A stretch of 64,000 nucleotides of DNA, taken from positions 620,001 through 684,000 of the forward strand of contig NZ_VTOW01000002.1 in NCBI RefSeq assembly GCF_012184425.1, read 5' to 3'. Below the pieces are notes generated by a model that worked only from the letters and a program-made list of their open reading frames with translations, did no database searches and was not told the DNA's origin. The DNA comes from Candidatus Manganitrophus noduliformans (GTDB lineage Bacteria; Nitrospirota; Nitrospiria; SBBL01; Manganitrophaceae). The translations under genes and the position numbers were made by a program. Shown here piece by piece: positions 7,817-23,921 of this stretch (position 1 is the stretch's first letter; each line of letters begins with the position of its first letter).

Positions 7817-9532
7817 ATGGAACGGAAGATCATCGAGACCGATATTCTCATCATCGGCGGGGGAACCGCCGGATGTATGGCGGCAGTGGAGGCAAAAGAA
7901 CGTTACCCGCAACTGAATGTGACGATCCTGGAGAAAGCCCACATCGACCGAAGCGGCTGCCTCGCCGGCGGGATGAACGCCATCAACGCCTATCTGAACA
8001 AGGGGGAGACCCCGGAGAGCTTCGTCCGGTATGTCCGGTCCGACTCGTGCGGCTTGATCCGGGAAGACCTGGTCAAGACGATGTCGGAGTTCTTCGAGTA
8101 TTGCGTGAAGAAGGTGGAGAAGTGGGGCCTGCCGATCCTCTGTGACGATCAGGGAAATTATCTTCCGAGAGGTCGATGGAACATCAAAATCAACGGCGAA
8201 TCGCTCAAGCCGATCCTTGCCAAAGCGGCCCGCTCGGCGGGGGCGCAGGTCTACAATTGGGTCACCGTCACCAACCTTCTCACGGATGGAGACCGGATCG
8301 CGGGGGCGGTCGGGTTCTCGCTCCGAAACGGCACTTTCTATGTCGTCAAAGCCAAAGCGACGATCATCGCGACCGGCGGCGCGGCGGGACTCTATCGGCC
8401 GAACAATCCGGGGGACGCTTCGCACAAAACCTGGTATTGCCCCTACAACACGGGAGCGGGATACGCCATGGGAATCCGGGCCGGCGCCGAGATGACCTCG
8501 TTCGAGATGCGCTACGTCGCCCTCCGGACGAAGGACACCATCGCGCCGACCGGCACGATCGCCCTCGGCGTGAGGGCGCCGCAGGTCAACGCCAAGGGGG
8601 AGCAGTTCATGAAAACCCGCTACGCCCACCTCGGCGGCGACGGCGCCCCGACCCCCTATCGGACGTACGGCCCGTTGATGGAAATTAAGGAAGGGCGCGG
8701 CCCGGTTTATCTCGACACCCGCGGCCTCACGGCGGAACAGGTTCGAGAGCTGAAGGCGGCTTATCTCGACATGTATCCCTCGATGGTCCTCTATTGGGCC
8801 GCCAACAACATCGATCCTTCCAAAGAGCCGATCGAAGTCCAAACGACCGAGCCCTACATCGTCGGCGGCCATTGCCAGGCCGGTTATTGGGTCGACGGCG
8901 AGCGCCGGACGACGTTGAAAGGCCTTTACGCCGCGGGGGACGTCGCCGGAGGCGCCCCTTATAAATTCGTCTCCGGATGCTGGGCGGAGGGGGTCATCGC
9001 CGCCCGGGCCGCCGGGGCCGATATCGCGAACATGCCGCCGATCACTGTTTCGGACCAGCAGATCGCGGCGGAGGAAGCGCGCGCTTTCGAGGCGATCAAG
9101 CGGCCAGGCAAAGTGCGCTACCCTATTCTCCCCACCGACATGGAGGCCCGGCTTCAGAAATTGCTGGAGCAGTATGCCGGCGGCGCCTCGACCTATTATG
9201 AGATGAACGAAGAGATGCTCCAGATCGCACGGCAGCGGCTGGCCAAATTCCCGGCCGACTTCGATCACCTGGTCGCAAACGACCTTCATCAACTGATGAA
9301 GGTGCACGAGATCATGGACCGGGTCGATGTCGCCCAAACGCTGGTCGAACACCTTCTCCACCGGAGAGAAACCCGCTGGCCGTCGTATCAGACCCGAACC
9401 GATTATCCCGAGCGGGATGATGTGAATTGGCTGAAGTTCGTCAACTCCCGGCGCGACCCGAAAACCGGGAACATCGAGGTCCTGACACGGCCCTACGAGC
9501 AGGTCATCCCTGGAGATCGGTACAAGCCGTAG
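7817..9532 (+). CDS. aprA: Adenylylsulfate (APS) reductase alpha subunit, short form
   Basis: FAD subunit of APS reductase, which interconverts APS and sulfite plus AMP. The Rossmann motif DILIIGGGTAGCMAAVEA is at residues 10-27. It is followed by the AprA-typical EKAHIDRSGCLAGGMNAINAY and GRWNIKINGESLKPILAKAA. FEMRYVALRTKDT matches the substrate-arginine region, and IVGGHCQAGYWVDGE plus GLYAAGDVAGG match the later active-site histidine and FAD contacts. At 571 residues it is shorter than the usual dissimilatory AprA of about 620-660. aprB and sat follow, but no qmoABC or dsrAB is in the window. Short AprAB pairs next to sat have been linked to assimilatory sulfate reduction in some Clostridia, so an assimilatory role is favoured here as an inference. 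Confidence 0.9.
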   Translation: MERKIIETDILIIGGGTAGCMAAVEAKERYPQLNVTILEKAHIDRSGCLAGGMNAINAYLNKGETPESFVRYVRSDSCGLIREDLVKTMSEFFEYCVKKVEKWGLPILCDDQGNYLPRGRWNIKINGESLKPILAKAARSAGAQVYNWVTVTNLLTDGDRIAGAVGFSLRNGTFYVVKAKATIIATGGAAGLYRPNNPGDASHKTWYCPYNTGAGYAMGIRAGAEMTSFEMRYVALRTKDTIAPTGTIALGVRAPQVNAKGEQFMKTRYAHLGGDGAPTPYRTYGPLMEIKEGRGPVYLDTRGLTAEQVRELKAAYLDMYPSMVLYWAANNIDPSKEPIEVQTTEPYIVGGHCQAGYWVDGERRTTLKGLYAAGDVAGGAPYKFVSGCWAEGVIAARAAGADIANMPPITVSDQQIAAEEARAFEAIKRPGKVRYPILPTDMEARLQKLLEQYAGGASTYYEMNEEMLQIARQRLAKFPADFDHLVANDLHQLMKVHEIMDRVDVAQTLVEHLLHRRETRWPSYQTRTDYPERDDVNWLKFVNSRRDPKTGNIEVLTRPYEQVIPGDRYKP

Positions 9533-9594
9533 AGGGATATCGATCGGCCCATGGAATGTCATTCATCGCGGTTTTAATTTAAGGAGGTTTTTAA

Positions 9595-9981
9595 ATGCCT
9601 GTTTGGGTAGATCCAGAAAAGTGCAACGGCTGTCACGGAGCCAGCCAGCCCCCCTGTCTTCGGATGTGTCCGGGCGACCTGATCGTCAAGGACCACACCG
9701 CCAATAAGGCCTATCTAAAATATCCGGAAGATTGCTGGGATTGTCTCCCCTGCGTCAAGGTCTGTCCGGAAGAGGCGATCGAGTTTCATCTCGCCTACCA
9801 GTTCGGAGGGAAGGGCGCCAAGCTGATTCCACATATCCACAAATCGCACGATCAGATCTCCTGGGAGCTGATCGATACGCAGGGAAACAGCGAGACGTTC
9901 ACCATCCGAACCAAACTGATGCCGGTGGCGCTCGATGAAAAGGTCGAAGGGGGAACACAGACACTCGACTTTTCGATTTAG
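9595..9981 (+). CDS. aprB: Adenylylsulfate (APS) reductase beta subunit, ferredoxin-like
   Basis: Electron-transfer subunit of APS reductase with 128 residues and two [4Fe-4S] clusters. The first cysteine set is CNGCHGASQPPCLRMCPGDL and the second is CWDCLPCVKVCPEEAIEF, the AprB arrangement with an enlarged first loop. The C-terminal part, which wraps round AprA in characterised enzymes, is short (about 50 residues after the second cluster; typical AprB is around 150). A strong ribosome binding site, AAGGAGG, precedes the ATG by about seven bases. It passes electrons to the FAD of AprA, encoded 62 bases upstream. Confidence 0.92.
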   Translation: MPVWVDPEKCNGCHGASQPPCLRMCPGDLIVKDHTANKAYLKYPEDCWDCLPCVKVCPEEAIEFHLAYQFGGKGAKLIPHIHKSHDQISWELIDTQGNSETFTIRTKLMPVALDEKVEGGTQTLDFSI

Positions 9982-10008
9982 CAGAAATTCATCTCAATTC
10001 AATTATCA

Positions 10009-10017
10009 CTATTCCGA
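10009..10017 (-). promoter_or_regulatory. Second copy of the candidate Rrf2 operator core
   Basis: CTATTCCGA on the plus strand is the exact reverse complement of the core TCGGAATAG found upstream of the Rrf2 gene. It sits in the 50-base gap before sat, and in its setting CTAT-N4-AAAG it keeps most of the dyad. Binding there would modulate sat separately from aprAB. Confidence 0.35.
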
Positions 10018-10031
10018 AAGGAGCTTCAAGC

Positions 10032-11204
10032 ATGGCTATTTCCGTTCCGCACGGTGGAAGATTGATCAACCGTTTTGTTGATCCGAAGGAGGTCGATCGG
10101 CTCACGCAAAAGGCCTCTCAAATGAAAAAGATCGAGTTGACCCCCCGCGAGATCTCCGATCTGGAGCTGATCGCAATCGGCGTCTTCTCTCCCCTGGAAG
10201 GATTCATGGGGAGCGCCGATTACCAGAGCGTGCTGGACCGGATGCGGCTTGCGAATGGCCTCCCATGGAGCCTCCCGATCACCCTCTCGGTCACCGCCGC
10301 CGAAGCCGCCGAATTGAAGCAAGGGATGGAAGTGGCCTTGATCCAGGAGACCGGGCTCCCCCTCGCCATTCTGAAGATCGACGAAATCTACCCCTTCGAC
10401 AAAGAGAAAGAGGCGGTCGCCGCCTACGGAACGAACGACGCCAGCCATCCCGGCGTCGCCTACACACAGACCCTCGGCGACTTTTACCTCGGAGGCAAGA
10501 TCGAGATGCTCCGCCGCTCGCCGATCCAGCGCTTCCACGAGCACCAGATGGACCCGGCGCAAACGCGCAAGCTCTTCGAGGAGAAGGACTGGAAGCGGAT
10601 CGTCGCCTTCCAGACCCGCAACCCGATCCACCGCGCCCACGAGTATATTCAGAAGTGCGCCCTGGAGATCACCGACGGCCTCTTGCTGCACCCGATCGTC
10701 GGGGAGACGAAGAGCGACGATGTCCCCGCCGATGTCCGGATGCGCTGCTACAAAGTGCTCCTCGAGAACTACTACCCGAAAGATCGGACGATCCTGGCCG
10801 TCTTCCCGGCGGCGATGCGCTACGCCGGCCCCAAGGAAGCAATCTTCCACGCCATCTGCCGGAAGAACTATGGGGTGACCCACTTCATCGTCGGCCGCGA
10901 TCACGCCGGCGTCGGCAACTTCTACGGCTCGTTCGATGCCCATCACATCTTTCAGAAATTTACGCTGGAAGAGCTCGGCATCCAGCCGCTCTTCTTCGAC
11001 CACACCTTCTACTGCAAACGCTGCCTTGGGATGGTCTCGGCCAAGACCTGCCCACACGATTCGTCGGAACATATCGCCCTCTCCGGAACCAAAGTGCGCG
11101 AGATGCTTCGCGGCGGGATCAAACCTCCCCCCGAGTTCAGCCGCGCCGAGGTCGCCGAGATTTTGATCGAGGCGATGTCCGATCAAGCCCGCCAGCCGAA
11201 ATAA
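10032..11204 (+). CDS. sat: Sulfate adenylyltransferase (ATP sulfurylase)
   Basis: Homomeric ATP sulfurylase of 390 residues that activates sulfate with ATP to give APS and pyrophosphate. The nucleotide-binding motifs are clear: QTRNPIHRAHEY near residue 195, LLHPIVGETKSDDVP, and GRDHAGVG near residue 290. The C-terminal CKRCLGMVSAKTCPH is the cysteine-rich zinc-binding region of bacterial and archaeal Sat. There is no fused APS kinase domain. With aprAB it forms the sulfate-to-sulfite route. A weak upstream GGAGC serves as the ribosome binding site. Confidence 0.95.
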   Translation: MAISVPHGGRLINRFVDPKEVDRLTQKASQMKKIELTPREISDLELIAIGVFSPLEGFMGSADYQSVLDRMRLANGLPWSLPITLSVTAAEAAELKQGMEVALIQETGLPLAILKIDEIYPFDKEKEAVAAYGTNDASHPGVAYTQTLGDFYLGGKIEMLRRSPIQRFHEHQMDPAQTRKLFEEKDWKRIVAFQTRNPIHRAHEYIQKCALEITDGLLLHPIVGETKSDDVPADVRMRCYKVLLENYYPKDRTILAVFPAAMRYAGPKEAIFHAICRKNYGVTHFIVGRDHAGVGNFYGSFDAHHIFQKFTLEELGIQPLFFDHTFYCKRCLGMVSAKTCPHDSSEHIALSGTKVREMLRGGIKPPPEFSRAEVAEILIEAMSDQARQPK

Positions 11205-11496: not shown

Positions 11497-12378
11497 ATGA
11501 TCCCCCCGCGATTCGACTATTTTTCTCCCGGCACCCTCCCCGAAGCGATTTCCCTTCTGCAAAGACATGGCGACGATGCCAAAATCCTTGCGGGAGGACA
11601 TAGTCTCATCCCCCTCATGAAGCTTCGGTTCGCCTCCCCCGCCGTTTTGATCGATATCAACCGCATCCCCGACCTCGCCTATCTGCGTGAGTCCAACGGA
11701 TACCTGGCGATCGGCGCCCTCACACGGGAGTCGGACCTCGACCATTCCGAGCTGATTCAAACCAAATATCCGATTCTCGCCGACACGGCCGCCGTGATCG
11801 CCGATCCCCTCGTCCGGAACATGGCGACGGTCGGCGGCAATCTCGCCCACGGCGATCCGGCCAACGATCACCCGGCCACCATGCTCGCAATGGATGCGGA
11901 GGTGGTCGTCCTCGGCCCGAACGGCACACGCGCCATCCCGGTCAAAAATTTATTCAATGGGCCGCTCAGCACCTCGCTCAATTCCGACGAAATTCTCACC
12001 GAGATCCGGATTCCGATCCCCCCGCTTCACAGCGGGGGCGCTTATCTGAAAATAGAACGGAAGGTGGGCGATTTCGCCGCCGCCGCCGTCGCCGTCCAAC
12101 TCACCGTCGGAAAAGGAAACATCTGCGAGCGGATCGGGATCGGCCTCACCAACGTCGGCCCTACCCCGATCAAGGCGATCCGCGCCGAGCAGCTGCTGCG
12201 CGGGCAGACGATCAACGATCAGATCATCCGGCAGGCGGCGGAGACCGCCTCGGAAGAGGCCCAGCCGAGCGCCGACCAGCGGGGCTCCGTGGAGTACAAA
12301 CGGTCTCTGGTGAGGGTTTTAACCACCCGCGCGCTCAACCGGGCGCTCCAGCGGGCGATGGGAGGAAAAGAGCGATGA
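11497..12378 (+). CDS. coxM: CO dehydrogenase medium subunit (FAD)
   Basis: FAD-binding subunit of 293 residues of the aerobic molybdenum CO dehydrogenase. The two glycine motifs that hold FAD are present: [13 protein letters not shown] near residue 32 and [17 protein letters not shown] near residue 111. A C-terminal CO_deh_flav_C domain follows (about 180-285). It takes electrons from the iron-sulfur subunit and passes them to the quinone pool. The order M-S-L is that of form I enzymes. The stop codon overlaps the coxS start in an ATGA. Confidence 0.93.
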
Positions 12379-12860
12379 CGAAAAAGAAGATCGAAGTCAC
12401 CGTCAACGGGGCAAAGGTCGAATCGGAGGTAGAGCCGCGGCTTCTCTTGGTCCACTTCATCCGGGAGATCCTCCGGCTGACCGGAACCCACATCGGATGC
12501 GACACCAGCCACTGCGGCGCCTGCACTGTCTTGCTCGACGGCCGGGCGGTCAAATCGTGCACCCTCTTTGCCGTTCAGGCCGACGGGCGCCGGCTGATGA
12601 CCGTCGAAGGGCTGGAGCAGGAGGGAAAGCTTCATCCGATCCAGGAGGGATTCGTTCAGGAACATGGCTTACAGTGCGGCTACTGCACCCCCGGTATGTT
12701 GATGACCGGCTATGCCTTTCTTCAGAGAAACGGCAATCCGATCCCGTCGGAGGCGGAGATCCGCGAGGCAATCTCGGGAAATCTCTGCCGCTGCACCGGA
12801 TATGTCAACATCGTGAAAGCGATCCAAAACGCCGCCCACAAGATGCAGCAAGGCGTCTAA
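12375..12860 (+). CDS. coxS: CO dehydrogenase small subunit (2x [2Fe-2S])
   Basis: Iron-sulfur subunit of 161 residues. The N-terminal plant-ferredoxin-type cluster uses [15 protein letters not shown] and a further cysteine in AVKSC. The C-terminal helical cluster uses CGYCTPGM and GNLCRCTGY. It relays electrons from the molybdenum site in CoxL to FAD in CoxM. It is translationally coupled to coxM by a four-base overlap, and coxL starts 17 bases after its stop behind an AAAGGAG site. Confidence 0.95.
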
Positions 12861-12876: not shown

Positions 12877-15243
12877 ATGACACCTCGAACGAGCGAAGAG
12901 ATCGGTGGGATGGGACATTCCATTAAACGGATGGAGGACCCCCGCTTCATCCGGGGAAAAGGAAGTTATGTCGATGATATCCAGATGGCGGGGATGCTCC
13001 ATCTCGACATCGTCCGAAGCCCCTACGCCCACGCCAAAATCAAGCGGATCGATCCAAGCCGCGCGCTCGCCATCCCGGGGGTCCTCTCCGTCATCACGGG
13101 AGAAACCCTCGCCAAGTACAAGCTCCATTGGATGCCGACCCTCATGTCCGACACACAGATGGTCCTGCCGGTCGACAAAGTGATGTTCCAGGGGCAGGAG
13201 GTCGCCGCGGTCCTCGCCACCGACCGATACATCGCCGCCGACGGGGTGGAAGCGGTCGAGGTTGAATACGAGCCGTTGCCGGTCGTTGTCGATCCCTTCA
13301 AGGCGCTCGAGCCGGGCGCGCCCGTCTTGAGAACCGATAAGAAAGATAAAAAAGACAACCTCATCTGGCATTGGGAAAACGGCGACCGGGCCGCGACTGA
13401 AAAGGCGTTCCAAGAGGCGGAGGTGGTGGTCAAGGAGAAGATCTACCTGCCGCGGATTCATGTCTCCTCGATCGAGACCTGCGGCTGCGTCGCCCACTTC
13501 GAGAAAGCCACCGGAAAATTGAAGCTGATCATGACGACGCAGGCCCCCCATGCCATCCGGACGGTCCTGGCGCTGGTCGCCGGCCATGTCGGCCTCTCGG
13601 AGGAAAAAATCCGGGTGATCTCCCCCGACATCGGCGGCGGGTTCGGCGGAAAGGTGCCGGTTTATCCGGGGTATGTCATCGCCGTCGCCGCCTCGGTCCT
13701 CACCGGCAAGCCGGTCAAGTGGGTCGAGGACCGGATGGAGAATCTCCAGTCCGACTCCTTCGCCCGCGATTACCACATGACCGCCGAGATCGCCGCCAAA
13801 AAAGACGGCACGATGACGGCCCTTCGGATCAAGACCCTCGCCGACCACGGCTATACCGACGCGGCGGCGAACCCGTCGAAATACCCGGCCGGACTCTTCA
13901 GCATCTGCACCGGCTCTTACGATTTTAAAAATGCCTTCGTGGAGATGGACGCCGCCTACACCAACAAACCTCCCGGCGGGGTCGCTTACCGTTGCTCGTT
14001 CCGGGTCACCGAGGCGGCGCACGCCATCGAGCGGATGGTCGACATTCTCGCCCACCAATTGAACATCGATCCGGCGGCGCTGCGGAAAAAGAACTTCATC
14101 CGGAAGGAGCAGTTCCCTTACAAGTCCGTCCTCGGGTGGGAATATGACAGCGGCGACTATGCCCCCGCGCTCAATCTGGCGATGGAGAAGATCGGCTACG
14201 ATGCGCTTCGAAAAGAGCAGGCCGAAAAGAGAAAGCGCGGGGAGCTGATGGGGATCGGGATCTCCAGCTTCACCGAAATCGTCGGCGCCGGCCCCTCGAA
14301 AAATTTCGACATCCTGGGAATCAAAATGTTCGACAGCTGCGAGCTTCGGATCCATCCGACCGGCAAGGCGATCGCCCGCTTCGGCACCAAATCGCAGGGC
14401 CAGGGACATGAGACCACCTATGCGCAGATCATCGCCGAGGAGCTCGGCATTCCCGCCGTCCATGTTGCCGTGGAAGAGGGAGATACCGACACCGCCCCCT
14501 ACGGCCTCGGCACCTACGCCAGCCGGAGCACCCCCACCGCAGGCGCCGCGGCGGCCCTTGCCGCCCGGAAGGTCCGGGAGAAGGCGAAAAAGATCGCCGC
14601 CTACCTCATGGAGGTGAGCGAAGAGGACCTGATCTGGGAGCCGGGGAAGTTTATCGTCAAAGGGGTCCCGGGCAAATCGAAAACCATTCAGGAAATCGCC
14701 TTCGCCGCCTACACGAACCACCCCCAGGGAATGGAGGCGGGAATGGAGGCGGTGAACTATTACGATCCCCCTAACCTGACCTTTCCCTTCGGAAGTTATA
14801 TCTGCGTCGTCGACATCGACCGGGGAACCGGAGAGGTCAAGGTCCGCCGCTTCGTCGCGGTCGACGATTGCGGCAACATCATCAACCCGATGATCGTGGA
14901 GGGACAGATCCACGGCGGGCTGGCCCAGGGATTCGCCCCCGCCCTGCTCGAAGAGATCATCTACGACGACCAGGGGAACAACCTCTCCGGAAGCTTTATG
15001 GATTATCTCCTCCCCACTGCGGTGGAGACCCCCAAGTGGGAGACCGACAAGACCTGCACCCCCTCCCCCCATCATCCCCTCGGCGCGAAAGGGGTGGGGG
15101 AATCGGCCACGGTCGGGGCCCCCCCCGCCATCGCCAATGCCGTGGTCGACGCCCTCTGGCATCTGGGGGTCCGGCACATCGACATCCCGATCACCGCCGC
15201 GAAGGTCTGGAAGATTTTGAAGGAAAAAGGGGTCGCCGAGTAG
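12877..15243 (+). CDS. coxL: Form I CO dehydrogenase large subunit (Mo-Cu)
   Basis: Catalytic subunit of 788 residues that oxidises CO to CO2 at a Cu-S-Mo centre with the cytosine dinucleotide molybdenum cofactor. The decisive form I active-site loop AYRCSFR is intact at residues 370-376, so the copper-binding cysteine is C373. Form II relatives carry a different loop here. The catalytic glutamate lies in GVGES (E742), and the cofactor loops IGGGFGGK and GQGHETTYAQI are present. The length matches known form I proteins (about 800). The stop codon TAG is the first part of a palindrome that fills the gap to coxD. True CO oxidation, rather than another hydroxylase activity, is strongly supported. 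Confidence 0.95.
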   Translation: MTPRTSEEIGGMGHSIKRMEDPRFIRGKGSYVDDIQMAGMLHLDIVRSPYAHAKIKRIDPSRALAIPGVLSVITGETLAKYKLHWMPTLMSDTQMVLPVDKVMFQGQEVAAVLATDRYIAADGVEAVEVEYEPLPVVVDPFKALEPGAPVLRTDKKDKKDNLIWHWENGDRAATEKAFQEAEVVVKEKIYLPRIHVSSIETCGCVAHFEKATGKLKLIMTTQAPHAIRTVLALVAGHVGLSEEKIRVISPDIGGGFGGKVPVYPGYVIAVAASVLTGKPVKWVEDRMENLQSDSFARDYHMTAEIAAKKDGTMTALRIKTLADHGYTDAAANPSKYPAGLFSICTGSYDFKNAFVEMDAAYTNKPPGGVAYRCSFRVTEAAHAIERMVDILAHQLNIDPAALRKKNFIRKEQFPYKSVLGWEYDSGDYAPALNLAMEKIGYDALRKEQAEKRKRGELMGIGISSFTEIVGAGPSKNFDILGIKMFDSCELRIHPTGKAIARFGTKSQGQGHETTYAQIIAEELGIPAVHVAVEEGDTDTAPYGLGTYASRSTPTAGAAAALAARKVREKAKKIAAYLMEVSEEDLIWEPGKFIVKGVPGKSKTIQEIAFAAYTNHPQGMEAGMEAVNYYDPPNLTFPFGSYICVVDIDRGTGEVKVRRFVAVDDCGNIINPMIVEGQIHGGLAQGFAPALLEEIIYDDQGNNLSGSFMDYLLPTAVETPKWETDKTCTPSPHHPLGAKGVGESATVGAPPAIANAVVDALWHLGVRHIDIPITAAKVWKILKEKGVAE

Positions 15244-15263
15244 GGGCGTATTGCATACGCCCC
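15243..15263. repeat. REP-like palindrome at the coxL-coxD junction
   Basis: GGGGCGTAT at 15243-15251 pairs perfectly with ATACGCCCC at 15255-15263 around a three-base loop. It overlaps the coxL stop codon and ends one base before the coxD ribosome binding site AAAGGA. The arm resembles GTAG-headed REP elements; the bases GTAG lie at its left edge. It could shield the 3' end of the coxMSL message or limit read-through to the maturation genes. Confidence 0.6.
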
Positions 15264-15274
15264 AAAGGATCGAC

Positions 15275-16192
15275 ATGAAAGAAGAAATCGCCACGCTGCA
15301 ATCCCGGATGGCCGAGGCCGGGTATATCGCCGAGCGCCCGATCACGACGGCGCTCTTCTTGGCCCGGTCGCTCCAGCGGCCGCTGCTGATCGAGGGGGAG
15401 GCCGGGGTCGGGAAGACCGATGTGGCGCGGGTCTTCGCCCAGATTCAGCAGACCGAGCTGATCCGGCTCCAATGCTACGACGGACTCGACGTCCATTCCG
15501 CCCTCTACGAATGGAACTACCCCCGGCAGATCCTCCGCATTCGTATGGAGGAGCGGCGGGGACTCGATCCGGATCGATCCCATCGTCCGAACCCGATCGC
15601 CCAGATCGAGGAAGAGGTCTTCAGCCGCGACTGCCTCCTGGAACGTCCCCTTCTAAAAGCGATCACGCAAAAGGAGCGCCCTCCGGTTCTCCTCATCGAC
15701 GAAGTCGACCGCGCCGACGAGCGGTTCGAGGCTTTTCTGCTGGAGCTTCTCTCCGACTTTCAGGTCACCATCCCGGAGTTGGGAACGATCCGGGCGGAGC
15801 AGATTCCGATCGTCCTCCTCACCTCCAACCGGACCCGCGATTTAAGCGACGCGCTGCGGCGGCGCTGCCTCTACCTCTGGATCGATCCCCCCGGCTTCGA
15901 AAAAGAGATCGCGATCCTCCGAAGCCGCCTCCCCGACATCAACGCGCGGCTCGCCCAGGAGATCGGCCACTTCATGCAGCGAATCCGAACGCGCCGGCTC
16001 TATAAAACCCCCGGGATCGCCGAGACCCTCGACTGGGCCCGTGCCCTCATGCAGCTGCACAGAGATCATCTTGACCCGGAGGCCATCGAAGAAACGCTCG
16101 GCTGCGTGTTGAAGAATTATCACGACGTAAAGGCGTTCGGTCCGGAGGAGACGAAGACGCTGCTGGCGGAAGTGGAAAGGACCCTTCGATGA
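15275..16192 (+). CDS. coxD: CoxD, AAA+ ATPase of the MoxR type
   Basis: AAA+ ATPase of 305 residues. The Walker A motif GEAGVGKT has K47, the Walker B motif is PVLLIDEVDRAD, and a sensor region lies around VLLTSNRTRDLSDALRRRCL. In Oligotropha, CoxD is needed to build the Cu-S part of the active site on the apo-enzyme and works with the VWA protein CoxE. The ATG at 15275 is chosen because AAAGGA lies five bases upstream. An in-frame TTG at 15251 would start inside the palindrome and is unlikely. It overlaps coxE by four bases. Confidence 0.92.
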   Translation: MKEEIATLQSRMAEAGYIAERPITTALFLARSLQRPLLIEGEAGVGKTDVARVFAQIQQTELIRLQCYDGLDVHSALYEWNYPRQILRIRMEERRGLDPDRSHRPNPIAQIEEEVFSRDCLLERPLLKAITQKERPPVLLIDEVDRADERFEAFLLELLSDFQVTIPELGTIRAEQIPIVLLTSNRTRDLSDALRRRCLYLWIDPPGFEKEIAILRSRLPDINARLAQEIGHFMQRIRTRRLYKTPGIAETLDWARALMQLHRDHLDPEAIEETLGCVLKNYHDVKAFGPEETKTLLAEVERTLR

Positions 16193-17340
16193 AGACGCAA
16201 GCGTTTTCTGATTTCCCATCCCGTCCCGGCGATCTCATCGAGAATCTCGCCCTCTTCTGCCGACATCTCCGGGAGGCCGGCGTTCGGGTCGGCCCGTCGG
16301 AAGAAATCGACGCCGGCCGAGCGATCCTTCAGGCCGATCTGGCCGATCTCGACGAATTCCATCTCGCCCTCCGCTCCACCCTGGTCCGGCGTCACGCCGA
16401 CTTAGCGCCGTTCGATCGACTCTTCCGCAAATTCTGGAAGGGGGAGGAGATCGTCTCTTCCGAATCGCCTCCCCGCCCGGCGCGCCGATCCCGGCCCTCC
16501 GGAGAGGGTCCCCCCCTCTCTTGGCCCGGCGAAGAGGAGCGCTCCTCCCGATCCGAAGAGCGGCAAGAGACGGTTCAGGTCGGATCGAGCCGGGAAGCGC
16601 CGCTCCGGAAAAGGTCGTTCGAAACCCTTACCCCGGAAGAGCTCGATGAGATGGAGGCGCTCCTCGACAAGCTGGTCTGGCGGCTCGCCACACGCCGGAG
16701 CCGGCGGAGGGTCCCCGCCCATGGCGGAGAGGAGATCGATCTGCGCCGGAGCTTTCGCGCCGCGCTCTGGTATGGCGGGGAATTCATCACGCTAGCCCGC
16801 CGGACACGCCCGATCGAGCGGGCACGGCTGGTTTTCCTCTGCGACGTCAGCGGGTCGATGGACTCTTACAGCCGGTTCTTGATCCGGTTCCTCCTCTCCC
16901 TCCGACGGTTCACTGATTCGGTCGAGATCCTCGTTTTCAACACAAGCCTGACTCACCTGACGCCGCTTCTGAGGGTCCAGACGGTCGACCGTCTCCTCGA
17001 CGAGATTGCGGAAGCGGTCCCCGGCTGGTCGGGGGGGACGATGATCGGCGAATCGCTCGACGCATTTCTAACCGGATACCCGTCCTTGTTGAAGCCGGAA
17101 TCGGTGGTCGTTATCCTCAGCGATGGGCTTGACCGCGGGGAGACCGACCTGTTGGCTCATGCCATGCAAGGAATCCGGAGAAAAGCGAGAAAAATCATCT
17201 GGCTCAATCCGCTGTTGGGAGACCCCGAATACGCGCCGCTCTGCCAAGGTATGCAGGCCGCCCTCCCCTTTGTCGACCACTTCGGGGCCGCGCACAATCT
17301 TGAATCGCTGGAAACGCTGATCACCCAGCTTGGCGTCTGA
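16189..17340 (+). CDS. coxE: CoxE, von Willebrand factor A domain protein
   Basis: Protein of 383 residues in the CoxE/VWA_CoxE family. The C-terminal half is a VWA domain with an intact metal-ion adhesion site, CDVSGSMDSYSRF (D219, S221, S223). A charged, low-complexity linker occupies about residues 95-145. It is the usual partner of the MoxR ATPase and, in studied CO oxidisers, is required for inserting sulfur and copper into CoxL. The start overlaps the coxD stop (ATGA), so the pair should be made in matched amounts. Confidence 0.92.
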   Translation: MKTQAFSDFPSRPGDLIENLALFCRHLREAGVRVGPSEEIDAGRAILQADLADLDEFHLALRSTLVRRHADLAPFDRLFRKFWKGEEIVSSESPPRPARRSRPSGEGPPLSWPGEEERSSRSEERQETVQVGSSREAPLRKRSFETLTPEELDEMEALLDKLVWRLATRRSRRRVPAHGGEEIDLRRSFRAALWYGGEFITLARRTRPIERARLVFLCDVSGSMDSYSRFLIRFLLSLRRFTDSVEILVFNTSLTHLTPLLRVQTVDRLLDEIAEAVPGWSGGTMIGESLDAFLTGYPSLLKPESVVVILSDGLDRGETDLLAHAMQGIRRKARKIIWLNPLLGDPEYAPLCQGMQAALPFVDHFGAAHNLESLETLITQLGV

Positions 17341-17356: not shown

Positions 17357-17944
17357 ATGGGACTCACATTCGATAAAAAATTTGAGATCAACGCGCCGAT
17401 CGAGGCGGCCTGGGCATTCCTGACCGATCCCAAACAGGTGGCCCAATGCCTCCCGGGCGCCGAGCTGACAAAACAGATCGATGCGACGACTTATGAAGGG
17501 ACCGTCTCCGCGAAGGTCGGGCCCATCATGGCGAAATACAAAGGGGAGGTCCGCCTGGAAAAACTGGACCGCGCAACCTATGAAGTGGTCGCCGTCGGCC
17601 GCGGCCAAGATGTGACGGGGAAGGGCGGGGCCGACGGAAAGATGGTCAGCCGTTTTCGAGCGATCGATCCGGGCAAGACGGAGATCTCCATCTCCTCCGA
17701 GGTCAACTTGACCGGGAAGCTGGTCCAATTCGGCCGCGGGCTCATTCAAGACGTCGCCGACCAAATCTTTCACAAATTCACCGCGGCGGTCCGCGAGCGC
17801 CTCGAAAAGCCGGCTGATGCCGCGGCGGCGGTCTCTCCTCCCTCCCCTGCGGCGCCGATCAACGCCTTCGCCCTGTTGAGCCGGGCGATCTGGCAATGGT
17901 TGCTGCGGCTCTTCGGAAAAAGGAGCGCCGATGGAAAGGGATAA
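17357..17944 (+). CDS. coxG: CoxG, SRPBCC-fold membrane-association factor
   Basis: Protein of 195 residues. The START/SRPBCC domain spans about residues 1-150 and opens with FDKKFEINAPIEAAWAFLTD; the conserved CLPGAELT follows. The C-terminal tail after a Pro/Ala-rich linker (AFALLSRAIWQWLLRLFGKR) is amphipathic and hydrophobic, as expected for attachment to the inner membrane. CoxG is reported to recruit CO dehydrogenase to the membrane, consistent with electron delivery to quinone. The gene overlaps the next one by 14 bases. Confidence 0.9.
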   Translation: MGLTFDKKFEINAPIEAAWAFLTDPKQVAQCLPGAELTKQIDATTYEGTVSAKVGPIMAKYKGEVRLEKLDRATYEVVAVGRGQDVTGKGGADGKMVSRFRAIDPGKTEISISSEVNLTGKLVQFGRGLIQDVADQIFHKFTAAVRERLEKPADAAAAVSPPSPAAPINAFALLSRAIWQWLLRLFGKRSADGKG

Positions 17945-19535
17945 TCCGAAAATCGCGGCGGTCGTCTTGGCCGCCGGCGCCTCCCAACGATTCGGCCAAT
18001 GCAAGCAGTTGATCCGGCTGAACGGCAAACCCCTTCTGCAGCATGCGCTCGATCCGGTCCTGAAAGCCGGGATGGATGAGGTGATCCTGGTCCTCGGGAC
18101 CGAGGCCGAGGCGATTCTCAAAGAGATCGATGTCGGCCGCGCCCGCGCCGTCCGGAACGACCGGCCGGAGGAGGGGATGAGCCGTTCGCTGAAGATCGCC
18201 CTGGCCGCTCTGTCCCCGGCGACGGAAGGAGCGCTCATCGTTCTGGCCGACCAGCCGTTCGTCTCCCCCGAGACGATGGCGGCCCTGGTCGACACCTTCC
18301 GCAAAACGCATCCCGCCGTGGTGATCCCTACCTACAACGGGTTCCGCGGAAACCCGGTTCTCCTTTCAAGGTCGCTCTTCGACGAGATGCAGCAGATTGA
18401 AGGGGACATCGGCTGCCGCGCCCTCTTCGGAAATCATCCCGGCCGGATCGTGAAGGTGGCGGTCGACGATCCGGGAGTGATCATCGACATCGACACTCCG
18501 GAAGATTTCGAGCGGGCGGCTGAAGGAAAACCGAAGGGGCCGTCCGAAAAGCCGAATGACCGGGCCGTCTCCGCCGTTCCGGACGACTTATCGCAGATCG
18601 AAGCCCGACTCCGCCGGATCGGAACCCCCTTCGCCCGAGCAACCGTGGTCCGGGCCGAGCGGCCGACCTCCGCCAAGCCGGGAGACAAAGCGATCATCCA
18701 GGAAGACGGCGCCCTCCACGGATGGATCGGGGGAAGCTGCGCCCGGGATACCGTGATCGAAAAAGGAATCGAGGCGATCCGCGGAGAGAAGCCCCTTTTC
18801 CTCCGGATCACCCCTCGAAAGGAGGAACCGATGGAAGGGATGGAAACGGTCCCGATGCCCTGCTATAGCGGGGGGACGATCGATCTTTTCATCGAGCCGC
18901 AACTGCCGAATCCGCCGCTGATCGTCTTGGGACGCGATCCGGTCGCCGCGGCGCTCGTCCGGCTCGGCAAGGCGATGCGATTCGACGTCACCCTGATCGA
19001 CCCTCTGGCCGATCCGAATTCGTTTCCGGCGGCCGACCGGCTGATTCATCGGCTCGACCTCCCCGCGCTCGAAATCGGAGCGCGCGCCGCGGTCATCGTC
19101 GCGACACACGGCCGGTTCGATGAAGAAGCAATCGAGCAGGCGGTCGGAACCGGCGCCGGATATATCGCCCTGGTCACAAGCAGGAAGCGGGCCGATGCGA
19201 TCTTACGGCGTTTGCGCGAGCGGGGGGTCTCTCCGGAAGCGCTGGGGCGGGTGAAGGCTCCCGCCGGTTTGAACCTCGGAGCAGAGACCGCCGAGGAGAT
19301 TGCGCTGAGCATCTTGGCTGAGATCGTTCAACTCCGGCGGGCCGAAAGAAAGGACCAACCGAAGGTCCGTCGGGAGGATAAAGTCGTCGCTAAGACCAAA
19401 GATCCAATTTGCGGGATGATGGTCAACCCGGTCGGAGCCGAATACAAATCTGAATATCAAGGAAAGTTATTTCATTTCTGCTGCGACGGGTGTAAAGCGA
19501 AGTTTGACGCCGCCCCGGCCGCCCATGCTGCGTAG
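17931..19535 (+). CDS. Three-domain fusion: MocA-like cytidylyltransferase, XdhC, YHS
   Basis: Fusion of 534 residues. Residues 1-195 are a MobA/MocA-type nucleotidyltransferase (VVLAAGASQRFGQCKQLI; ADQPFVSP; PTYNGFRGNPVL), expected to convert Mo-molybdopterin to the cytosine dinucleotide form used by CoxL. Residues about 210-290 match the XdhC/CoxI N-terminal domain (GGSCARD), and about 315-465 the XdhC Rossmann domain (LIVLGRDPVAAALVRLGKAM). Residues 490-530 are a YHS metal-binding domain (DPICGMMVNP with C494; FHFCCDGCKAKF with C517, C518 and C521). MocA and XdhC are usually separate. YHS domains occur in copper and heavy-metal proteins, and CoxL needs copper, so metal delivery is an inference worth testing. 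It starts inside coxG. Confidence 0.88.
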   Translation: MERDNPKIAAVVLAAGASQRFGQCKQLIRLNGKPLLQHALDPVLKAGMDEVILVLGTEAEAILKEIDVGRARAVRNDRPEEGMSRSLKIALAALSPATEGALIVLADQPFVSPETMAALVDTFRKTHPAVVIPTYNGFRGNPVLLSRSLFDEMQQIEGDIGCRALFGNHPGRIVKVAVDDPGVIIDIDTPEDFERAAEGKPKGPSEKPNDRAVSAVPDDLSQIEARLRRIGTPFARATVVRAERPTSAKPGDKAIIQEDGALHGWIGGSCARDTVIEKGIEAIRGEKPLFLRITPRKEEPMEGMETVPMPCYSGGTIDLFIEPQLPNPPLIVLGRDPVAAALVRLGKAMRFDVTLIDPLADPNSFPAADRLIHRLDLPALEIGARAAVIVATHGRFDEEAIEQAVGTGAGYIALVTSRKRADAILRRLRERGVSPEALGRVKAPAGLNLGAETAEEIALSILAEIVQLRRAERKDQPKVRREDKVVAKTKDPICGMMVNPVGAEYKSEYQGKLFHFCCDGCKAKFDAAPAAHAA

Positions 19536-19547
19536 AGTGAAGACCCC

Positions 19548-20114
19548 ATGAAAAACGGCGACAAGCCAATTCCTGTTTTGATCGGAGCGCACGGCGGATA
19601 CCGCGAGCTGAAGTCGTATCAAAACGCGGAGATCGTTTATGACGCCACCGTGAGGTTCTGCGACCGGTTTGTGGAGCACCGATCACGCACGCGCGACCAG
19701 ATGGTTCAGGCGGCGCGGAGCGGCAAGCAGAACATCGCCGAGGGGAGCGTGGCGTCGGGCACTTCTAGGAAAACAGAACTGAAACTGGTGAGCGTGGCGC
19801 GGGCGAGCCTCGAAGAATTGTTGCTGGACTACCAGGACTATTTAAGGCAACACGGGCTGGCCCTTTGGGCAAAGAATCACTCCACCGCGCAAGCGGTGAG
19901 AAAACTCGCTTTTGAAAAGGATAGGTCGTATAAGACCTATAGGACCTATGTCGAAAAAGAAAGTGCAGAAACTGCTGCAAACACATTGATCTGCTTGATC
20001 CACCAAACCAACTACCTGCTCGACCGGCAATTGCGACAGCTTGAAAAACAGTTTCTAAATGAAGGCGGTTTCGCAGAGCGGCTCTACCGGGCGAGAAAGA
20101 AAAGACCTTTATAG
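19548..20114 (+). CDS. Four-helix-bundle (S23-like) protein with suffix domain
   Basis: Protein of 188 residues of the four-helix-bundle family related to proteins encoded in 23S rRNA intervening sequences (SRTRDQMVQAARSGKQNIAEGS is cut here to its core, DQMVQAARSGKQNIAEGS). The C-terminal helix LIHQTNYLLDRQLRQLEKQF matches the suffix extension. The function is unknown. It sits inside the CO dehydrogenase operon between two cofactor genes, where family members are not expected, and is followed immediately by a TATAGGTCC-type palindrome. A related sequence lies inside the coding region and encodes RSYKTYRTY. This looks like an inserted cassette. Confidence 0.8.
   Translation: MKNGDKPIPVLIGAHGGYRELKSYQNAEIVYDATVRFCDRFVEHRSRTRDQMVQAARSGKQNIAEGSVASGTSRKTELKLVSVARASLEELLLDYQDYLRQHGLALWAKNHSTAQAVRKLAFEKDRSYKTYRTYVEKESAETAANTLICLIHQTNYLLDRQLRQLEKQFLNEGGFAERLYRARKKRPL
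19922..19941. repeat. Internal inverted repeat related to the downstream palindrome
   Basis: ATAGGTC and GACCTAT flank six bases inside the four-helix-bundle coding region, followed at once by AGGACCTAT. The same words make up the palindrome after the gene, so the gene and the repeats appear to belong together. Confidence 0.55.
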
Positions 20115-20156: not shown

Positions 20157-21287
20157 ATGGAAACTTTTGACTTCATCGATCAACTCCGCCGCACCCGGAC
20201 CCGCGCCGCCATGGCGACGCTGATCCGGACCCGCGGGACGACCCCCCGCAAAGAAGGGACCAAAATGCTCGTCGATGAGGCGGGCCAGATCCTCGGCTCG
20301 GTGACCATCGGCGGCTGCGTCGATGCGCAGGTGATCGAGGCCGGCGGAGAGGTCCTCCGCGACGGACGGCCCCGCCTTCTGTCGCTCCGACTGGGGGATG
20401 AGGAAGCCTGGGAGATCGGCTTAACCTGCGGGGGAACCCTCGACATCCTCATCGAGCCGATCCACCCCTCCGACCCGGCAGACCCCACCGCCCGCGGATA
20501 TGATGCGGCGCGCGCAGCCGCCGAACAGGGAGGAGCGGTCTTGGCGGCCGTCATCGGTGGAGAGGGCCTGTCGATCGGGGCGCGATTCCTGATCGGCACA
20601 ACGGGAGAGGTAAAGGGTCCGGTCGATTCGGCGCTCGCCGAGGCGCTTCGCCGGGAAATCCCCGCTCGGATTGCAAATCAAGCCGTTTCCGAGACGATTC
20701 CCCTCACGTTGTCCGACGGCCGAATGATTGATCTCTTCCTCGAAACCTTCGGCGCCCCACCGACGCTGCTGATCTTCGGCGCCGGGGCGGTCGCCATCCC
20801 GCTCGCGACCTTCGGGAAGGGACTCGGCTTCCGGACCGTCCTGGTCGACGGCCGTCCCCGTTTCGCCAATCGGACACGTTTTCCGGACGCCGACGACATC
20901 CGGGTCGGGATTCCCTCGGAGATCGCCGAAGCCTTTCCGCTGAACCGGGGGGTTTGGGTCGTCCTGGTCGCCCATGATTACAAGTATGACGTGCCGGTTC
21001 TGGCGCGCGCCCTCCGGACCGATGTCCCCTACATCGGAATGCTCGGGAGCCGCCGGCGGGGACGGGCGATCCTCGACCTCCTCCGAGAAAAAGGGATCGA
21101 CGAAGGGTCGCTTCAACGGATTCGCGTCCCGATCGGCCTCGACCTCGGCGCGCAGTCGGCGGCGGAGATTGCGATCAGCATCCTGTCGGAGATCCTCGCC
21201 GTGAAGTATGGGCGTGAAGGAACCCCGTTGAGCCGACCCGCGGTTGCAACGACCTCCGGCCGCTCCGCACCGGGAGGACCCCAATGA
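20157..21287 (+). CDS. XdhC/CoxI family molybdenum-enzyme maturation factor
   Basis: Protein of 376 residues with the XdhC_CoxI N-terminal domain (TRGTTPRKEGTKMLVDEAG, GSVTIGGCVDAQVIEA, LTCGGTLDILIEP) and a C-terminal XdhC Rossmann domain (TLLIFGAGAVAIPLATFGKG, YIGMLGSRRRG). XdhC in Rhodobacter binds the molybdenum cofactor, promotes its sulfuration by a NifS-type desulfurase and inserts it. Here sufS is encoded three genes downstream. The ATG has no recognisable ribosome binding site, since repeat sequence lies directly before it. The four-base overlap with the next gene keeps the downstream genes coupled. Confidence 0.88.
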   Translation: METFDFIDQLRRTRTRAAMATLIRTRGTTPRKEGTKMLVDEAGQILGSVTIGGCVDAQVIEAGGEVLRDGRPRLLSLRLGDEEAWEIGLTCGGTLDILIEPIHPSDPADPTARGYDAARAAAEQGGAVLAAVIGGEGLSIGARFLIGTTGEVKGPVDSALAEALRREIPARIANQAVSETIPLTLSDGRMIDLFLETFGAPPTLLIFGAGAVAIPLATFGKGLGFRTVLVDGRPRFANRTRFPDADDIRVGIPSEIAEAFPLNRGVWVVLVAHDYKYDVPVLARALRTDVPYIGMLGSRRRGRAILDLLREKGIDEGSLQRIRVPIGLDLGAQSAAEIAISILSEILAVKYGREGTPLSRPAVATTSGRSAPGGPQ

Positions 21288-22312
21288 AGGCGATATTGGT
21301 CCGGCGGGAGGCGCTTCGCCCCGAGACGCTCGTTCTTCAGCGTCTCTGCCATGATCTCTCCGACTCCGAGGGGAAAATACTTTTCAGAAAGGGAGCGCCG
21401 ATTCTAGAAGCGGATCTCCCCGCCCTCCTCGCCGCCCCCTGGGAAACGCTTCACCTGGTCCAGCTGGAGCCGGGGGACCTCGATGAAATCGCGGCGGGAG
21501 AACGCCTGGCCCGCGCAATCGCCGGAACCGGGGTCGTCATCCAGGCGGGGGCGCACGGCAAGCAGACCCTCCGCGCATCGCACAAAGGGCTGCTGAAGAT
21601 CGACGCGGCGACCCTTCAAGGGATCAATGCCCTTTCGGGGATCGCCGTTTATACTCTCCTGAACGGCCAGGTCGTCTGCGGCGGAGATGTGATCGCCTAT
21701 GCGCAGATCACCCCGCTTGCCCTGCCCGACAAGACGATCGAAGCGGTGGAGCGGTGGACCCGGCCGGCGGGATGCCTCCTCTCCGTCGCCCCCTTCTTCC
21801 CCTGCTCGATCGGCCTCATCCTCTCTGAGCGAAGCGATCCGGTCGCAAGGGAGCGTTTTCTCAATGTCCTGAAAAAAAAGCTCGATTGGTTCGGCGCCAC
21901 GATACGGGAAGTCGTTGATCTCCCCCCCGATCCCGAGGTGATCCGCGTCTCGCTCGTGGACGCCGTCGCGTCGGGGGCGACGCTGATCTTGATCGCCGGC
22001 AGCAATGCCATGGACCCGCTCGACCCCTTTCTCCTCGCCTTGGAAAGGGCGGGGGCCCGGATGGAACGGATCGGGATACCGGCCCACCCGGGAACGTTGC
22101 TCTGGCTCGCCGGTTACAAGGGTGTCCCCCTGATCGGACTCCCCCGCTGCGGGCTTTTCTCACAGACAACCGTCTTTGATCTCATTCTCCCCAAACTCTT
22201 GGCGCGCGGAAGGATCTCCCCGGAGGAGATCGCCGACCTCGGCCACGGGGGGATCTTAAATCGCGACATGATGTTCCGTTTTCCCCCCTATGAGAGGGAG
22301 AGCGCGCCATGA
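21284..22312 (+). CDS. Molybdopterin-binding (MoaB/MogA-fold) protein
   Basis: Protein of 342 residues. The C-terminal half resembles the MoCF_biosynth (molybdopterin-binding) fold: ATLILIAGSNAMDPLDPFLLALERAG, GIPAHPGTLLWLAGYKGVPLIGLPRCGLFS. The N-terminal part (about 1-160) resembles regions found in such proteins next to xanthine or CO dehydrogenase genes. It probably binds or hands over the cofactor to CoxL, but it is not MoeA itself. It overlaps xdhC and sufU by four bases at each end, so it belongs to the same translational unit. Confidence 0.78.
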   Translation: MKAILVRREALRPETLVLQRLCHDLSDSEGKILFRKGAPILEADLPALLAAPWETLHLVQLEPGDLDEIAAGERLARAIAGTGVVIQAGAHGKQTLRASHKGLLKIDAATLQGINALSGIAVYTLLNGQVVCGGDVIAYAQITPLALPDKTIEAVERWTRPAGCLLSVAPFFPCSIGLILSERSDPVARERFLNVLKKKLDWFGATIREVVDLPPDPEVIRVSLVDAVASGATLILIAGSNAMDPLDPFLLALERAGARMERIGIPAHPGTLLWLAGYKGVPLIGLPRCGLFSQTTVFDLILPKLLARGRISPEEIADLGHGGILNRDMMFRFPPYERESAP

Positions 22313-22689
22313 TCGCCTACGGCGGGCGGATCTTGGAGCACTACCGCCATCCCCGAAATGCCGGATCGCTCCCAGACCCCGACATCTCTTATGAGGATGT
22401 AAATCCCCTCTGCGGAGACCGGATTCGGATCATGTTGAAGCTCGCCGCGGGAGAGACGGTGGACGCGGCGCGGTTTCGGGCCGACGGCTGCATCATCAGC
22501 CAGGCGGCCAGCTCCCTTCTCACCGAGATGGTCACCGGCCGGCGGCTCGATGAAATCGAAACGCTTGCTCCTGAAACGTTGCTGCAGGCGCTCCAATGGG
22601 AGCTTCGGCCCGCGCGGATCAAATGCGCCCTCCTCCCCTATGAGATCCTTCAAACCGGAATCAAAGAATACCGCCGAGAACACCGATGA
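22309..22689 (+). CDS. sufU: SufU-type iron-sulfur/sulfur-transfer protein
   Basis: NifU/IscU-fold protein of 126 residues with the three expected cysteines in NPLCGD, ADGCIISQAASSLL and IKCALLPY. SufU-type proteins accept persulfide sulfur from SufS through a zinc site and serve as a scaffold or relay. The position between a molybdopterin-binding protein gene and a cysteine desulfurase gene, coupled to both by ATGA overlaps, suggests a dedicated sulfur route for CO dehydrogenase rather than a general Suf operon. No sufBCD genes are in the window. Confidence 0.85.
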   Translation: MIAYGGRILEHYRHPRNAGSLPDPDISYEDVNPLCGDRIRIMLKLAAGETVDAARFRADGCIISQAASSLLTEMVTGRRLDEIETLAPETLLQALQWELRPARIKCALLPYEILQTGIKEYRREHR

Positions 22690-23921
22690 GCCTCGACGCC
22701 GAACAATTGCGGAAAGACTTTCCCCTTCTTGAGCGGACCGTTCATGGAAAACCGCTGATCTATCTGGACAACGCCGCCACGACACAAAAACCGGTCCAGG
22801 TCCTCGATGCTATCCGGGACTATTACCTCTCCTCCAATGCGAACGTTCATCGCAGCATTTACGCGCTGGGAGAAGAGGCGACCGCCCGGTATGAAGCGGC
22901 GCGGGACCGCGTGGCCCGATTCATCGACGTTCCCCGGGAAGGGGTTGTCTTCACGCGGGGAACGACCGAAGCGATCAATCTCGTCGCGCAGAGCGGGGGG
23001 AGGAGCTTTCTTCGGAAAGGCGATGAGATCTTGCTCACTGACTTGGAACATCACAGCAACCTGATCCCCTGGCAGCTTGTCGCGAAGGAGCGCGGCGCTC
23101 GGCTGCGCTTCCTCCCGGTCCGCGACGGCGCGCTTGACCTCGATCGGCTCGCCGACTGCGTCACCCGCAAGACCCGGCTGATCGCCGTGACCGCGCTTTC
23201 AAACGCCCTCGGCAGCGTGACGCCGTTGGAGCGATTCCGAGAAGCGGCCCTTTCGGTCGGGGCGCTGCTCCTTGTCGATGCCGCACAGGCGGTCGCCCAT
23301 CAGCCGATCTCCTTTGCCTCCATCGGCTGCGATTTCCTCGCCGTCTCCGGCCACAAGATGCTCGGCCCGACCGGGATCGGCGTCCTGGCCGCTCGGCCCG
23401 ATCTGTTGGAGCGGATGCCCCCTTTTTTCGGAGGGGGGGAGATGATCCGGGAGGTCTGGCCGGAGACGGCGACCTGGAACACCCTTCCCTGGAAATTCGA
23501 GGCAGGGACCCCGCACGTCGCCGGGGCGGTTGGCCTCGCCGCTGCGATCGATTATCTCGACCGGGTCGGAATGAAGGGGATCCAGGCGCACGGGGCGGCG
23601 TTGGCGGAGGAGGCCGCGGCCGGCCTCTTGAAGATTCGGGGAACGACCCTGTATGGCCCCAAGCCGGGAGAGGCCCGCGGCCCGATCGTCTCCTTTACTT
23701 GTGATGGAATCCATCCCCATGATCTCGCCGCCTCCCTCGATGAAGAGGGGATCGCCATCCGGGCCGGTCACCACTGCGCCCAGCCGCTGATGCGCCGTCT
23801 CGGAATCGCCGGGACCGCCCGCGCGAGCTTCGGCCTCTATAATACTTCGGCCGACTTAAAGATATTTCTCGAAGCGGTGACCCGGGCGGTCGATCTCTTC
23901 CGCTCCCTTCGCCGGGGCTGA
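22686..23921 (+). CDS. sufS: SufS-type cysteine desulfurase
   Basis: PLP enzyme of 411 residues that takes sulfur from cysteine as a persulfide. The PLP lysine is in SGHKMLGPTGIGVLA. The catalytic cysteine is in AGHHCAQPLMRRL, and the conserved RGTTEAINLVAQ and DLEHHSNLIPW are present. The motif and length mark a group II (SufS/CsdA) enzyme. As the last gene of the CO dehydrogenase operon it is a likely source of the bridging sulfur in the Cu-S-Mo centre or of the CoxS clusters. That role is inferred from position; the enzyme class is clear. Confidence 0.92.
   Translation: MSLDAEQLRKDFPLLERTVHGKPLIYLDNAATTQKPVQVLDAIRDYYLSSNANVHRSIYALGEEATARYEAARDRVARFIDVPREGVVFTRGTTEAINLVAQSGGRSFLRKGDEILLTDLEHHSNLIPWQLVAKERGARLRFLPVRDGALDLDRLADCVTRKTRLIAVTALSNALGSVTPLERFREAALSVGALLLVDAAQAVAHQPISFASIGCDFLAVSGHKMLGPTGIGVLAARPDLLERMPPFFGGGEMIREVWPETATWNTLPWKFEAGTPHVAGAVGLAAAIDYLDRVGMKGIQAHGAALAEEAAAGLLKIRGTTLYGPKPGEARGPIVSFTCDGIHPHDLAASLDEEGIAIRAGHHCAQPLMRRLGIAGTARASFGLYNTSADLKIFLEAVTRAVDLFRSLRRG

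Follow-up and report, generated by a model that had tools for sequence, protein, structure and literature searches.

A YHS domain at the C-terminus of CoxF, near-exclusively associated with form I coxL, as a candidate copper site in the maturation of aerobic CO dehydrogenase

The question of how the Mo-S site of aerobic carbon monoxide dehydrogenase acquires its copper is raised here by one gene of a cox operon in the window (the whole 64,000-nucleotide stretch of DNA that was analysed). The first-pass annotation had placed this gene in a CO dehydrogenase operon with a form I coxL, a reading borne out by the AYRCSFR motif of the large subunit and its TIGR02416 score of 1253 bits, and had seen MocA, XdhC and YHS domains on its single chain, all of which are recovered by Pfam above the gathering scores. 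The features concerned are:

11497-12378, + strand: coxM, FAD subunit (Pfam)
12375-12860, + strand: coxS, 2Fe-2S subunit (Pfam)
12877-15243, + strand: coxL, form I (AYRCSFR; TIGR02416, 1253 bits against a cut-off of 991)
15251-16192, + strand: coxD, MoxR-type AAA+ ATPase (Pfam and NCBIfam)
16189-17340, + strand: coxE, VWA protein (PF05762, E 1e-55)
17357-17944, + strand: coxG (PF06240, E 2e-22)
17931-19535, + strand: MocA-CoxF(XdhC)-YHS fusion, 534 residues, intact open reading frame
17958-18437, + strand, within the fusion: MocA-like CTP:molybdopterin cytidylyltransferase domain, residues 10-169 (NTP_transf_3, PF12804, E 4e-39)
18615-19325, + strand, within the fusion: CoxF-type XdhC module with C270 and C311 (Pfam and tree placement)
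19398-19523, + strand, within the fusion: YHS domain, residues 490-531 (PF04945, E 1e-14)
20157-21287, + strand: second XdhC protein (XdhC2), general type with CGG motif and no tail, outside the CoxF clade in both trees
22309-22689, + strand: IscU/SufU-like scaffold, a probable sulfur supply (PF01592, E 7e-28)
22686-23921, + strand: SufS cysteine desulfurase, the probable source of the Mo/Cu bridging sulfur (TIGR01979, 535 bits, over the cut-off)

The genes run in the order coxM-coxS-coxL-coxD-coxE-coxG-fusion-(23S rRNA-IVP-like gene)-XdhC2-(342-aa gene)-IscU-SufS. The gene between the fusion and XdhC2 (19548-20114, + strand) resembles 23S rRNA intervening-sequence proteins (PF05635, 29.9 bits, under its cut-off) and is 94% conserved in a same-genus genome; the 342-residue protein (21284-22312, + strand) has no Pfam or NCBIfam match and is conserved in the same-genus genome G003. 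The operon copy of G003 (L031) has coxL, coxE and sufS split over several frames, possibly through sequencing errors, and an intact fusion gene. Directly upstream of the cox operon (7817-11204, + strand) lie genes for an FAD_binding_2 flavoprotein, a 4Fe-4S protein and ATP sulfurylase, an aprAB-sat-like set.

All four Pfam domains of the fusion exceed their gathering scores, including XdhC_CoxI (residues 229-292, E 3.5e-15), XdhC_C (residues 330-465, E 3.3e-32) and YHS, which reaches 54.7 bits against a cut-off of 30.3 with the D/C/C/C ligands present. The N-terminal domain scores 171.6 bits with the NCBIfam equivalog TIGR03310, under its cut-off of 186.45, and is accordingly called MocA-like rather than MocA proper. 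An assembly artefact as the source of the fusion is ruled out by the G003 copy (96% identity) and by fusions of the same domain order at L033 and L044, the lineages concerned being the window genus, a Thermoanaerobaculia MAG (its sister in the tree) and a Thermoplasmata MAG. Fold prediction with AlphaFold2 on 46 relatives gave high confidence for the XdhC part and for the tail, whose YHS fold reaches a pLDDT of 89-97 apart from the last residues; the linker between them is less certain (pLDDT 71-75), and its length varies from 24 to 84 residues where measured.

The gene itself can be assigned, from its position and from phylogenetic trees, to CoxF. In Oligotropha, mutation of coxE or coxF yields a CO dehydrogenase with sulfurated Mo sites but no copper, and CoxF, a member of the XdhC family, has been proposed as the copper supplier on the basis of a short motif, M107CPSHGTM (PMC4240915). 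The remark of the first-pass annotation that it knew of no standard copper chaperone for this enzyme is therefore superseded, since the window gene is, on this assignment, an ortholog of that very candidate. It shares its operon with coxMSL of form I and with coxDE. In genomes from the same order (G016, G013), coxM-S-L-G-D-E is followed by an XdhC-YHS gene without MocA, then by a separate MocA, a second XdhC and SufS; the XdhC-YHS gene after coxE thus occupies the coxF position of the Afipia (Oligotropha) cluster coxMSLDEFG. In a careful tree of 58 XdhC domains, built with the tail removed, all tailed and proteobacterial CoxF proteins fall on one branch (98/95), with the XdhC module of the fusion inside it, and the tail-less CoxF proteins form a single clade (100/100) nested inside the tailed set. 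A 180-row tree agrees on both points, with 3 changes of tail label against 53 in shuffles, one of the 3 being a frameshifted locus (L072). C270 and C311 are invariant across the CoxF clade.

The fusion foreseen by the annotation is real, but its three-domain order is not the unit tied to form I coxL. MocA is a separate gene within less than 4 kb in 27 of the 72 tailed loci and is fused in only four, so that the constant unit is XdhC-YHS. The MocA fusion is a rare, lineage-specific addition, seen here in three lineages.

Does the tail have the makings of a metal site? An alignment of 46 relatives shows no variation at D491, C494, M496, F516, C517 and C521, a conservation that is partly circular, several of these residues having been required by the selection pattern; a search with an HMM found no tailed XdhC without the ligand residues. 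The four cysteines named by the annotation (C494, C517, C518 and C521) are all present as stated. As a metal-binding set, C494, C517 and C521 are retained and C518, which is Cys in only 36 of 72 relatives, is dropped; the ligands are likely to be D491, C494, C517 and C521. The same DPxCxM...FCxxxC module occurs in a copper-type P1B ATPase of the same genome (L003) and three times in the copper-type ATPase of a relative (L019). Against PDB sequences the tail gave only weak matches, to phenol hydroxylase and TA0938. YHS domains are found too in proteins without a copper role. The YHS domain of the Mycobacterium phlei adenylyl cyclase gives specific activation by copper, its proposed ligands being an Asp and three Cys (PMC4626032), a set which D491, C494, C517 and C521 match. 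The YHS domain of toluene-4-hydroxylase was solved without metal, and TRASH/YHS folds can hold other ions, such as cadmium in ribosomal L24e (PMC4626032). The M107CPSHGTM motif is poorly conserved: relatives have K, R or Q in place of its His, and its second Met is found in 8 of 12 tail-less and 3 of 71 tailed CoxF proteins. Wherever the tail exists, it makes a better candidate for the copper site.

The distribution of the tail was followed in three samples, and tails were detected by pattern and then checked with an HMM built from the pattern matches. Among XdhC reading frames of at least 200 residues in 30 genomes or records picked for a CoxF-like match, 29 of 77 are tailed, and 26 of these 29 lie within 3.5 kb of a form I coxL; the tail-less XdhC near form I (7 of 48) are second-type XdhC or Bradyrhizobium CoxF. 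In 60 evenly drawn Chloroflexota genomes with 63 XdhC reading frames, all seven tailed proteins stand beside form I and none of the 52 XdhC away from it is tailed. The p values for these two samples (Fisher, 4e-11, and 6e-7, respectively) assume independent sequences, an assumption that does not hold, few independent evolutionary events being involved. Among the XdhC proteins of 149 evenly drawn Actinomycetota genomes, 27 give a match that extends through the tail (317-424 bits, against 157 bits for the next complete protein); 24 of them, three being contig-edge fragments, are 24-129 bp from a coxL of form I level, and the other three have a form I coxL on another contig. Conversely, every one of the 24 actinomycetote genomes with a form I coxL over the cut-off has a tailed protein, one copy being cut by a contig end. 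The picture differs in the Pseudomonadota, where 200 genomes yielded no tailed XdhC and the nine with a form I coxL all have a tail-less CoxF.

In most of the sampled phyla CoxF normally carries the YHS tail, which is new here, and the association of the tail with form I coxL is near-exclusive. Among sampled XdhC no tail was seen outside the CoxF clade (0 of 99 sequences of the other branch in the 180-row tree). Tailed proteins without a nearby form I coxL have one either some 14 kb along the same contig (L060/L144) or over the cut-off elsewhere in the genome (L035/L118, L041, L042, L044, L049 and L059); for one other, L054, the genome (G347) shows only short form-I-like fragments. A contig end truncates L186/L071, an apparent exception. 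The L072 locus, whose frame is broken, lacks a tail by the pattern yet matches the YHS HMM at 28 bits; no other tail-less XdhC scored in the HMM check. The annotation had named, as one observation that would refute copper, tails equally common beside copper-free molybdenum hydroxylases; when such tails were looked for, none was found unless a form I coxL was also in the genome, and the copper hypothesis survived.

Several loci deserve mention in their own right. A Chloroflexi CoxF (L035, 9935-11119) has two YHS domains and is unlinked to coxL, a form I coxL being present elsewhere in the genome. The tails of mycobacterial CoxF (L077, L079, L093, L097) are clear by pattern and HMM; that of L079, the only mycobacterial tail tested in this way, gave no Pfam YHS report at E 0.001, and standard annotation can miss such tails. 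At several proteobacterial loci (L133, L261-L265) the form I coxL has SYRCSFR in place of AYRCSFR, and motif searches with AYxCSFR would miss them. One genome of the Pseudomonadota (G285) has two tail-less CoxF-like XdhC (241 and 234 bits) and many other Mo hydroxylases, with no form I coxL; these CoxF-like proteins may serve other enzymes.

Taken together, we put at roughly 0.6 the probability that the YHS tail holds copper for CoxF to insert. The gene product is CoxF, which serves the maturation of the form I Mo-Cu enzyme, and it carries two additional domains. On its flexible linker, the tail would bind a thiophilic metal, most likely Cu(I), through D491, C494, C517 and C521; CoxF would dock, perhaps with CoxE and CoxD, on the folded, sulfurated apo-CO dehydrogenase, and the tail would hand copper to the Mo-SH group to give [CuSMoO2]. 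On the same polypeptide, the N-terminal MocA domain would produce the cytosine dinucleotide cofactor, presumably a convenience outside the copper step. Several points weigh against a copper donor: with one gain and one loss, the association with form I may be a matter of descent within the CoxF clade and not of copper as such, CoxF of the Oligotropha type is tail-less, and YHS domains without a copper role, or solved without metal, exist elsewhere.

The main rivals to Cu(I) transfer are a copper-sensing gate and a docking role. As a sensor, the tail would on binding copper switch the conformation of CoxF, so that the cofactor is inserted or released only with copper available. The only regulatory YHS domain studied biochemically, that of the adenylyl cyclase, acts in this way (PMC4626032), and the variable length of the linker also favours such a switch; nevertheless, in the Oligotropha model the cofactor is inserted before copper arrives, and the sulfurated, copper-free Mo of coxF mutants is explained more directly by a donor than by a gate on Moco insertion, which leaves the sensor unlikely. 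Slightly less plausible again, in our view, is that the tail plays no part in copper handling and serves instead as a structural or docking module, holding zinc for instance, for the recognition of form I CoxL or CoxE. Such a module is compatible with the other ions in TRASH/YHS folds and the metal-free crystal structure of one YHS domain (PMC4626032), with the fact that Oligotropha manages without a tail, and with the strict pairing with form I coxL, which would also be expected of a partner-recognition domain; against it, invariance within the tail is confined to the metal ligands and a few neighbouring residues, most other positions being variable, and close relatives of the tail are found in a copper-type ATPase of the same genome.

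The operon also contains SufS and IscU, and its active site needs a sulfido bridge, both of which would suit tail cysteines that carry sulfur as persulfide for the bridging sulfide. This is very improbable in view of a second molybdenum hydroxylase operon in the same genome (L029; G000:C1:1778000-1797900), whose large subunit scores far under the CO dehydrogenase cut-off. Its MocA, XdhC2, IscU and SufS genes follow the order of the cox operon, apparently a second use of one cassette for sulfur and cofactor, and a search of this second operon found neither CoxDEG nor a YHS-tailed protein; cofactor cytidylation, cofactor insertion and sulfur supply therefore need no tail. Moreover, SufS-like genes are present in only 7 of the 72 tailed loci, and other sulfurated hydroxylases need sulfur too, yet their XdhC are tail-less.

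The trees point to a single gain of the tail, at the base of CoxF or close to it, followed by one real loss. The tail-less clade comprises Oligotropha, Bradyrhizobium, Zhengella and Granulosicoccaceae, while other gammaproteobacteria (L038, L051) keep the tail, and no free-standing YHS-like reading frame was seen beside tail-less CoxF in 13 such loci. Oligotropha CoxF has no tail and its enzyme is nevertheless a proper copper enzyme, so that at least one lineage can do without the tail, which is not universally required for copper insertion. Its absence from Oligotropha, the genetic model, may be why it went unnoticed until now. We see about even odds that an ancestral CoxF with a copper-holding YHS domain loaded Cu(I) into the Mo-S site, and that this domain was lost once, in the proteobacterial lineage containing Oligotropha, where another copper route serves instead. 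If so, the tail would be the dedicated copper donor of most aerobic CO oxidisers, mycobacteria included. Mycobacterium smegmatis offers a form I enzyme and mutants (PMC6794299); together with the tailed mycobacterial CoxF, its genetics would turn the question of copper insertion into a simple experiment. The YHS tail on CoxF would also allow CO dehydrogenase operons of the copper type to be recognised from sequence. The link between coxF and copper was already known (PMC4240915); what appears to be new is the YHS tail on CoxF in most phyla sampled and its tie to form I coxL. In the open-access literature that was searched, no paper links YHS to XdhC or carbon monoxide, though the architecture may already be listed in subscription papers or domain-architecture databases.

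Among known systems, the closest is CoxF of Oligotropha (Afipia) carboxidovorans OM5, encoded on pHCG3, which shares with the window protein an orthologous XdhC, the place after coxE, the two invariant Cys and a C-x-S-x-G motif where other XdhC proteins have CGG, but has neither a YHS tail nor a MocA domain. The XdhC/CoxI/PaoD Moco chaperones (2WE8, a Rv0376c homologue) have the same two-part XdhC fold (Foldseek E 9e-20), whereas they belong to another clade, carry the CGG motif and are tailed in 0 of 99 sampled. The MocA cytidylyltransferase belongs to the same domain family as the N-terminal domain of the window protein, which differs in scoring under the equivalog cut-off and in being fused to CoxF. 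Finally, the YHS/TRASH domains of copper P1B ATPases and of the M. phlei adenylyl cyclase show the same type of DPxCxM ... FCxxxC signature (PMC4626032); there they are borne by transporters or signalling enzymes, whereas in CoxF the domain is carried by a metal-cluster maturation factor.
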